A stretch of DNA of 64,000 nt from NCBI RefSeq assembly GCF_024281235.1, contig NZ_JAHWXY010000003.1, positions 124,001-188,000 on the forward strand, read 5' to 3'. Position 1 is the stretch's first letter. Each line of letters opens with the position of its first letter. The translations under genes and the position numbers were made by a program. Shown piece after piece: positions 20,806 to 26,441 of this stretch. This stretch comes from Shinella daejeonensis. Lineage in GTDB: Bacteria > Pseudomonadota > Alphaproteobacteria > Rhizobiales > Rhizobiaceae. Under the pieces are notes generated by a model that did not search any database, had not been told where the DNA came from, and was given only the letters and a program-made list of their open reading frames with translations.

Positions 20806-20881
<76 letters not shown>

Positions 20882-23095: not shown

Positions 23096-23169
23096 TGGAG
23101 CGGGTAGCGGGAATCGAACCCGCGTATTCAGCTTGGAAGGCTGCTGCTCTACCATTGAGCTATACCCGC
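23096..23169 (-). tRNA. tRNA-Gly (anticodon TCC)
   Basis: 74 nt with encoded CCA. Acceptor GCGGGTA pairs with TACCCGC, anticodon loop CTTCCAA, T-loop GTTCGATTC. It follows tRNA-Tyr by 24 bp on the same strand and is probably processed from the same transcript. Confidence 0.97.
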
Positions 23170-23193: not shown

Positions 23194-23278
23194 TGGTGGA
23201 GGGAGTTGGATTTGAACCAACGTAGGCGAAGCCAACGGATTTACAGTCCGTCCCCTTTAACCACTCGGGCATCCCTCC
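23194..23278 (-). tRNA. tRNA-Tyr (anticodon GTA)
   Basis: 85 nt including CCA, with the long variable arm of a class II tRNA. Acceptor GGAGGGA pairs with TCCCTCC, anticodon loop CTGTAAA, T-loop GTTCAAATC. First gene of the unit that includes tRNA-Gly and tuf copy 2. Confidence 0.97.
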
Positions 23279-24445: not shown

Positions 24446-25069
24446 TCAGCCGGTCTGCTTCATGGGTTCGGCGCCCGAGATGACGCGCTCGGCCTCGGAA
24501 ATCGCCGCCAGTTTCGAATCGGCGCTCAGGTTCAACCCCTCAGCGCGCACGATCTGCACGTCATCGATCCCGATGAAGCCGAAAACCGTGCGAAGGTAGC
24601 TCTCCTGATGGTCCATCGCGGAGGCCGGGCCGACGCTGTAAAGGCCGCCACGGGTGGAAAGGATGATCACCCGCTTGCCCTTCGCCAGCCCCTCCGGCCC
24701 GTCCGCCGTATAGCGGAAGGTCTTTCCGGCGACGGCGATGCGGTCGATCCACGCCTTGAGCTGGCTCGGCAGGGAGAAATTATACATGGGGGCGCCGATG
24801 ACGATCGTATCCGCCGCCAGGAACTCCTCAAGCACGGCATGGCTTTCGGCGACATCGGCCGCCGTGTCCGCGTCCACCTCCGCCGCCGGCGCGTTGGCCG
24901 CAGCGAGGTGCGTACCCGACAAATGGGCAAGCGGACGGGCGACGAGATCCCGATAGAGGACGGTCATTTCGGAATTCTCCGCGCGCAACTGCGCCACCGC
25001 CGCTGCAGTAAGGCGGCGGGACACGGAGTTTTCTCCGAGAATTCCGGAATCGATATGGAGGGTCTTCAT
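24446..25069 (-). CDS. azoR: FMN-dependent NADH-azoreductase / quinone reductase
   Basis: Flavodoxin-like oxidoreductase that reduces quinones and azo compounds with NAD(P)H, usually a dimer. It has 207 residues from the ATG at 25069 ([20 protein letters not shown]), with AGGTG upstream. FMN-binding motifs [18 protein letters not shown] and STRGGLYS are intact. It is divergent from a LysR-type gene 294 bp away, which probably controls it. Reduction of electrophilic quinones is the likely physiological job. Confidence 0.92.
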
Positions 25070-25123
25070 GAAATGCACCTGTTTTGGGTTGTGGTGCACC
25101 GCATATGTTACAAAAACAATCGC

Positions 25124-25129
25124 ATTATA
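25124..25129 (-). promoter_or_regulatory. Putative -10 box of azoR
   Basis: A perfect TATAAT on the minus strand, 55 bp before the azoR ATG. No good -35 box stands at the expected distance, as expected for a promoter that needs an activator such as the divergent LysR-type protein. Confidence 0.4.
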
Positions 25130-25146
25130 AGACGGCAAATATCCAA

Positions 25147-25175
25147 TTGACCGTTTCCTACAGGAAACAATAAGA
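25147..25175 (+). promoter_or_regulatory. lysR promoter with palindromic operator in its spacer
   Basis: TTGACC at 25147-25152, then a 17-bp spacer, then ATAAGA at 25170-25175. The spacer is almost entirely the perfect palindrome GTTTCCTACAGGAAAC (25153-25168, arms of 7 bp around AC). A protein bound there would block this promoter and would sit just upstream of azoR. Promoter and palindrome are seen; the binding protein is inferred to be the adjacent LysR-type regulator. Confidence 0.6.
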
Positions 25176-25363
25176 GTAGCTGACAAAACCTCCGGGCGGA
25201 GAATAGCCGAAGGATTTTCGTTCGCCTGCAAGGACCCGACCGCCGTCGATGCCGGAGGCATCGGCTGAGGATTGACGACACGGCGGGCGACGAGAAGAAC
25301 CGGCCAGCCGATCCCATGAGGTTTTGTCAGGCGCTCTGAGACGGGCCGAACAGGAGACCGGAC

Positions 25364-26311
25364 ATGCAGGACCTCAACGATCTTGCGCTTTATGCAGCCG
25401 TGGTGCGCCATCATGGCTTCACGGCGGCGGCCAAGGCGCTCGGCATACCGAAGTCGAGGATCAGCAAGCGGATCGCGACGCTGGAACAGCGCCTTGGCGT
25501 GCGGCTCATCGAGCGCTCCACGCGCAAGCTGAACATCACGGATGTCGGCCAGGCCTTCTACGAACGCTGCGAGGCGGTGCTGGCGGGCGTCGAGGCGGCC
25601 GAAGCGGTGGTGGCGGTGGCGAAGGCCGAGCCGACCGGTACGGTCCGCATCGCCGTGCCGCCGGGTTTCGCGCCGGCGGTGGCGGATATCCTGCCGGCCT
25701 TCATGAAGAGCCATCCGCAAGTCAGGCTGTCCGTCATCGTCACCGGCCGGCCGGTGGATCTCATCGAGGAGAGGATCGACATCGCGCTGCGGGTGCGCGA
25801 GGGCTACGAGATGGACCAGTCGCTGGTGGTGCGCCGCTTTGGCGGGACGCGCCGCTATCTGGCCGCAAGCCCGCAGTTCCTCGATCGACATGGCCCTGTC
25901 ACCTTCGATGCGATCTCCCGCCTGCCCACGCTCTCCATGCAGGAAAACAGGTCGAAGCCGACCTGGACGCTCGTCAACGCGGATGGCGAGGCCCGCGACA
26001 TTCCGCACGATCCCGTGCTCACCTGTTCGGATTTCACCATTCTGGAGCGCGCCGCCGTCGCCGGTATCGGCCTTGCGCTGTTGCCGGACATCATCGTCGA
26101 ACGGGGCTTTCGCGCCGGGCTGCTTTCGCCGGTCCTGCCGGAATGGTCCTCGACCGAGGCGACGGTCCATGCGGTTTTCACGTCCCGGCACGGCATGCTG
26201 CCGGCGGTGCGGGCGCTGATCGACTACCTCGCCAAATATCTGCCCCGCTCCATGCAACGCTGCCAGGAAATGGCCGTCGCCTCGCTGCTGTCGGCCGACT
26301 GGTCCATCTGA
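25364..26311 (+). CDS. LysR-family transcriptional regulator
   Basis: 315 residues. The N-terminal winged helix-turn-helix reads [20 protein letters not shown]; it is followed by the linker helix and an effector-binding domain of periplasmic-binding type starting near residue 90 ([14 protein letters not shown]). The divergent arrangement with azoR makes azoR the likely target. The inducer cannot be read from the sequence; quinones or azo dyes are plausible. Its leader of about 180 nt contains no other gene. Confidence 0.9.

Positions 26312-26365: not shown

Positions 26366-26441
<76 letters not shown>

Follow-up and report, generated by a model that had tools for sequence, protein, structure and literature searches.

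A conserved 16-bp dyad between the divergent azoR and lysR genes of Shinella daejeonensis as the proposed recognition site of the adjacent LysR-type regulator

Between the divergently transcribed genes azoR and lysR, the 64,000-nucleotide stretch of Shinella daejeonensis DNA analysed here (hereafter the window) contains a 16-bp dyad that is conserved across orthologous gene pairs and accompanies the regulator rather than the oxidoreductase. From these sequence comparisons we put at roughly 80% the probability that the dyad is the recognition site of the adjacent LysR, which would bind as a tetramer, repress its own gene and activate azoR in response to an inducer.

The two genes are separated by 294 bp in the window (Table 1). 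The regulator carries both domains of a LysR-type transcriptional regulator (Pfam HTH_1, 3.1e-19; LysR_substrate, 9.8e-37) and shows the characteristic arrangement, i.e. divergent from its target with a shared regulatory region, in the window and in 68 of 105 loci gathered by LysR similarity. Its closest relatives among named records are from Shinella (73-76% identity), with one 'Phyllobacteriaceae bacterium' record at 77%; its best solved relative is 3hhg (3.3e-35 over residues 5-295), a match that indicates closeness, not orthology, and a structure named as CrgA of Neisseria meningitidis in the available text of PMC6422896. AzoR matches Flavodoxin_2 (PF02525, 3.3e-55), its best solved relative is 4c14 (FMN-dependent NADH-azoreductase 1, 3.1e-56), and its matches to NCBIfam azoreductase models all fall below the curated cut-offs; judged by fold and homology, it belongs to the flavodoxin-like oxidoreductases, and among solved proteins the azoreductases come nearest to it.

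Table 1. Features of the azoR-lysR region and its surroundings (window coordinates).
Feature	Position	Strand	Remarks
tRNA-Trp	20806-20881	minus
tRNA-Gly	23096-23169	minus
tRNA-Tyr	23194-23278	minus
azoR	24446-25069	minus	azoR-family FMN-dependent NADH:quinone/azo oxidoreductase
CATATG, candidate azoR -10	25102-25107	minus	ATATG at fixed offset -50 in 54/55; putative promoter role
AAAACAAT half-site	25113-25120		near-copy of right half-site GAAACAAT, same orientation, 51 bp off; putative role
GAT[AT]AG block, azoR -35 region	25126-25131	minus	offset -27 in 51/55; TATAAG in the window
lysR core promoter, TTGACC-N16-AATAAG	25147-25174	plus	spacer is exactly the dyad
16-bp dyad, GTTTCCT-AC-AGGAAAC	25153-25168		proposed LysR recognition (repressor) site; core GTTTC-N6-GARAC, then AAT
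Repeat element with inverted ends	25173-25337		about 165 bp, separates lysR promoter from lysR start; boundaries approximate, the left one reaching the -10
lysR	25364-26311	plus	LysR-type regulator
tRNA-Thr	26366-26441	plus	directly after lysR

The site was originally put forward as a perfect palindrome within the lysR promoter. TTGACC (25147-25152) and GTTTCCTACAGGAAAC (25153-25168) are both present, and the symmetry extends to 14 of the 16 positions, i.e. two 7-bp arms about an AC centre, so that 'perfect' overstates it. Taken alone the palindrome is unremarkable, because dinucleotide shuffling of the intergenic region produces comparable ones (7-bp arms, gap of at most 2) in 128 of 3000 cases, and 41 occur in the 64-kb window; the remarkable part is its conservation. 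These frequencies, together with a count of GTTTC-N6-GAAAC in the same genome that is close to that of the reversed pattern (10 places versus 7), are what might be expected of a chance palindrome with no function in this genome, an explanation rendered exceedingly improbable by the conservation of the site in every intergenic region compared and by the fixed register of the neighbouring blocks, which holds in 49-54 of 55 rhizobial sequences.

The 105 loci were gathered in sets of 1, 24 and 80, some loci being repeated between sets and two being the window. The 68 with azoR divergent beside LysR, two of them again the window itself, yielded 63 distinct intergenic regions including that of the window, 55 rhizobial and eight other. 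Presence of the palindrome in orthologous pairs, the check on which the original prediction staked itself, was borne out: GTYY-N8-RRAC occurs in 63 of 63 distinct azoR-lysR intergenic regions. Its form is GTTTC-N6-GARAC in all 55 rhizobial examples, and GTCC-N8-GGAC or GTTC-N8-GAAC in the remainder (seven from Pseudomonas and one from a metagenome bin). Within the rhizobial group positions 1, 2, 4 and 5 of the dyad are paired in all 55 sequences, position 3 is a T-G combination in four, and positions 6-8 vary, so that the 7-bp arms of the window exceed the 5 bp that are conserved. Information per column in these 55 averages about 1.96 bits in the arms and 0.71 in the inner six positions, and is 1.76 in the following AAT and 0.14 further downstream.

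The T-N11-A box is common in the LysR family and is not known to be required for membership. It had been stated that the palindrome lacks this form, which proves incorrect as to the letters, since T25154/A25166 and T25155/A25167 both provide it, and correct as to its centred version: the spacings symmetric about the dyad centre are T-N12-A and T-N10-A, and no symmetric T-N11-A box is found. On this ground a repressor of another type had been thought possible. In Firmicutes, quinone-sensing MarR-type repressors run azoreductase genes. A different repressor (e.g. of MarR, TetR or HxlR type) could accordingly own the palindrome whilst LysR binds elsewhere, an explanation to which both the missing symmetric T-N11-A and the existence of such quinone sensors (among them, in a source available in part, MhqR of Staphylococcus aureus) lend some substance; we nevertheless consider it very improbable, given that the site follows LysR and not azoR and that LysR relatives standing next to short-chain dehydrogenase (SDR), pirin and other genes have this frame upstream as well, as set out below.

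Of 121 family genomes, 55 contain an azoR relative, and 30 loci among the matches listed served as a control, with the motif sought within 300 bp upstream. The strict motif was present at 10 of 10 azoR loci paired with an orthologous LysR (the window included; the genomes of these ten also contribute to the 63 intergenic regions), at none of 15 without a LysR relative in the locus, and at none of five with a LysR of 26-32% identity. Relaxing the motif gave one match among the 15 azoR loci without a LysR relative, versus 0.96 expected. Conversely, for LysR relatives without azoR, the 16-bp frame was found upstream in 32 of 37 loci, versus 2.0 expected. A second set of LysR relatives with any neighbour (n = 113), fetched after the motif had been fixed and searched within 250 bp upstream, contained it in 76 loci, versus 6.1 expected; no exact 80-mer is common to any of the 113 and the first set, and ten of them had been examined earlier in the azoR control (motif in nine, azoR relative in the locus in four). 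In most motif-bearing loci (69 of 76) the distance from the beginning of the dyad to the LysR start is 17-42 bp. The 37 loci in which the motif is absent from the 250 bp upstream include many more distant relatives, and some of their starts may be wrong. Pfam identifies neighbours of dyad-bearing LysR relatives as a short-chain dehydrogenase (locus L012) and a pirin (L076), and others appear similar by eye. Because the site tracks LysR rather than azoR, and because the same frame recurs beside SDR and pirin genes, the dyad most likely belongs to LysR, rather than to azoR or a foreign repressor, and the earlier doubt on this point is mostly settled in favour of LysR.

Several loci merit separate mention. 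In L012, L013, L014, L015 and L023, an SDR-like gene and a related LysR are transcribed divergently, and GTTC-N8-GAAC lies near the start codon of the regulator; in L022 tandem GTYY-N8-RRAC sites lie 42 and 21 bp upstream of LysR, 21 bp apart. Residue 35, in the recognition region of LysR, was considered as a specificity switch and rejected. In the first set K35 coincided with T at site position 4 in 62 of 62 loci and R35 with C in 29 of 31 (loci not de-duplicated), and in further loci R35 again coincided with C (62 of 68); the K35-T association held in only two of eight. As K35 thus failed on further loci, and as the K pattern of the first set comes mostly from one lineage, we claim no general residue-35 code.

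The lysR promoter had been read as TTGACC-N17-ATAAGA, of which the first hexamer is upheld; ATAAGA matches TATAAT at one of six positions, compared with four of six for AATAAG (25169-25174) at a 16-bp spacing. With AATAAG as the -10 element the dyad occupies all 16 of the 16 spacer bases. A sigma-70 scan at its own thresholds returned no promoter on either strand in 25000-25420. Among the 55 rhizobial intergenic regions, 22 have TTGAC beginning 6 bp ahead of the dyad and 15 have it at 10 bp.

For azoR, a TATAAT had been proposed as a -10 element with no -35 box. The letters are present on the minus strand (25129-25124) and a -35 box is indeed missing (GGTCAA at 17-bp spacing); the role is not supported, ATTATA occurring before the dyad in one of the 55 rhizobial sequences, that of the window. 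It arises there because the conserved GAT[AT]AG block is changed to TATAAG, and the resulting TATAAT might serve as a new azoR -10. The candidate supplied by conservation is CATATG, which matches the -10 consensus at three of six positions. If CATATG is the azoR -10, transcription would start near 25095 and the dyad centre (25160.5) would lie near -65, the classical position of LysR recognition sites at an activated gene; the dyad itself is conserved, and its placement at -65 rests on CATATG as the putative -10. Counted ungapped relative to the dyad, as were the ATATG and GAT[AT]AG registers, AAAACAAT stands at a fixed offset of -40 in 49 of the 55, which makes it a candidate activation or secondary LysR site, and its 51-bp distance, almost five helical turns, suggests a LysR tetramer on the dyad and AAAACAAT together.

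Accordingly, the proposed mechanism would run as follows. LysR on the dyad would cover the spacer of its own promoter and thereby repress lysR, as the position of the site suggests, and, seen from the azoR side, the same bound LysR would be placed some 65 bp ahead of the probable transcription start. Two further subunits on AAAACAAT, together with the GAT[AT]AG block around -35 of azoR, would serve azoR activation, the tetramer shifting when inducer is present. The inducer is probably a quinone or a related electrophile reduced by AzoR, since the promoters of the regulator YhaJ answer hydroquinone (see below) and Pseudomonas aeruginosa azoreductases show quinone oxidoreductase activity, according to the available text of PMC4051601. 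The suggestion that one bound dimer represses lysR and activates azoR thus survives as regards a dual-role site, which overlaps the lysR promoter, lies upstream of azoR and is backed by footprinting across the intergenic regions and by the control with paired and unpaired loci; a single dimer is unlikely to be the whole story, given the half-site 51 bp away. Alternatively, LysR on the dyad could repress both genes without inducer, azoR being induced by derepression with no true activation. The overlap with the lysR promoter would suit this, and a subunit on AAAACAAT, which is flanked by the azoR -35 region on one side and the candidate -10 CATATG on the other, could block azoR; nevertheless, a dyad some 65 bp ahead of where azoR transcription probably begins is in the position from which LysR-type proteins usually activate, and no -35 box can be recognised for azoR, so that we regard derepression as unlikely and retain inducible activation of azoR by a LysR tetramer as the preferred reading.

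The window differs from its relatives in the lysR leader. The other 62 distinct intergenic regions measure 110-180 bp in 60 cases and 211 and 241 bp in two, and the excess length of the window's region is a repeat element with 20-nt inverted arms that are 85% complementary. Elsewhere in the same genome there are four long copies (83-91% identity) and fragments; a search of 20 other genomes of the genus gave no match at 1e-10, and at 1e-6 four of 121 family genomes match, its own included. A short, hairpin-only version of the repeat is seen in locus L116. The RIME elements of rhizobia were considered as its identity. Since the element begins at the lysR -10 or inside it, transcripts of lysR are expected to include it, and the RNA of 25173-25363 folds at -86.5 kcal/mol (z -4.65), with none of 200 shuffles as good. 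Since the GAT[AT]AG block is broken here and the repeat separates promoter and gene, regulation may work less well in this genome than in related ones.

Searches beyond the locus concerned the possibility of a wider regulon, for which no second target in this genome is claimed: the other matches fall mostly in frames and their number is near that of the control. GTTTC-N6-GAAACAAT with at most one mismatch occurs at three places, and the two outside the locus have no azoR or LysR relative within 3 kb. Apart from the window's own site, eight of the other nine GTTTC-N6-GAAAC places lie inside frames of more than 190 codons (a mechanical test that also puts the window's intergenic site in a long frame), and the ninth lacks the AAT flank and overlaps a GntR-type frame at its GTG start. 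Across the family, YGTTTC-N6-GAAACAAT is found in 23 of 121 genomes, in eight of them at the azoR-lysR pair, and 14 of the other 15 have neither gene within 3 kb, so that a pattern match alone means little. The exception is genome G108 (Rhizobiaceae; L131/L140, near 1502-1522), in which a full ATTGTTTC-N6-GAAACAAT dyad directly precedes a LysR gene of 34% identity. Genomes G103 and G113 possess the pair but escape the exact pattern, from which their sites depart in the last three bases. A search of Rfam gave a sub-threshold match only, and a literature search of open-licence papers found none on this azoR-LysR pair.

More generally, we incline by a narrow balance to the view that GTYY-N8-RRAC, an even dyad of 16 bp lying on the regulator's own promoter, takes the place of the symmetric T-N11-A box as the sequence read by a large LysR subfamily of proteobacteria, whose partner genes range from azoreductase to short-chain dehydrogenase and pirin, and that the copy in one genome has been rewired by a repeat that landed between the regulator gene and its autorepressed promoter. 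Such a rule, with the binding site just upstream of the regulator's own start, would extend to a whole LysR group, several members of which stand beside redox genes, and would make targets and specificity residues predictable; as regards how rhizobia detoxify azo dyes and quinones, it points to the likely switch of azoR.

The autoregulatory design of the site is ordinary for the LysR family, the subfamily-wide 16-bp motif and the leader repeat being the more interesting by-products. By analogy, CrgA-mdaB of Neisseria meningitidis and YhaJ-YhaK of Escherichia coli appear to be the nearest described systems. The former gene mdaB is divergent from crgA and encodes a quinone oxidoreductase. CrgA, likewise LysR-type and, as 3hhg, the best solved relative of the present LysR, binds the crgA/mdaB promoter region, acts as repressor or activator, forms an octamer and recognises a T-N11-A box, according to the available text of PMC6422896; the regulator of the present pair, in contrast, is partnered by azoR and has an even dyad of 16 bp as its proposed site, and as regards CrgA-type autorepression with activation of the neighbour it is only the site position that appears compatible. 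In the portions available of PMC5031710 and PMC7315121, YhaJ is likewise a LysR-type activator with a divergently transcribed gene and overlapping promoters; its target promoters are induced by hydroquinone and DNT, its box, TCA-N7-TGA, is compared with T-N11-A, and its targets number at least six, whereas the search of the present genome found only the local one. OxyR, IlvY, MetR and GcvA, as described in the available part of PMC5002191, combine self-repression with activation of the neighbouring gene through two or three intergenic inverted repeats of common spacing, with the consensus CTATA-n9-TATAG in place of the GTYY-N8-RRAC seen here.
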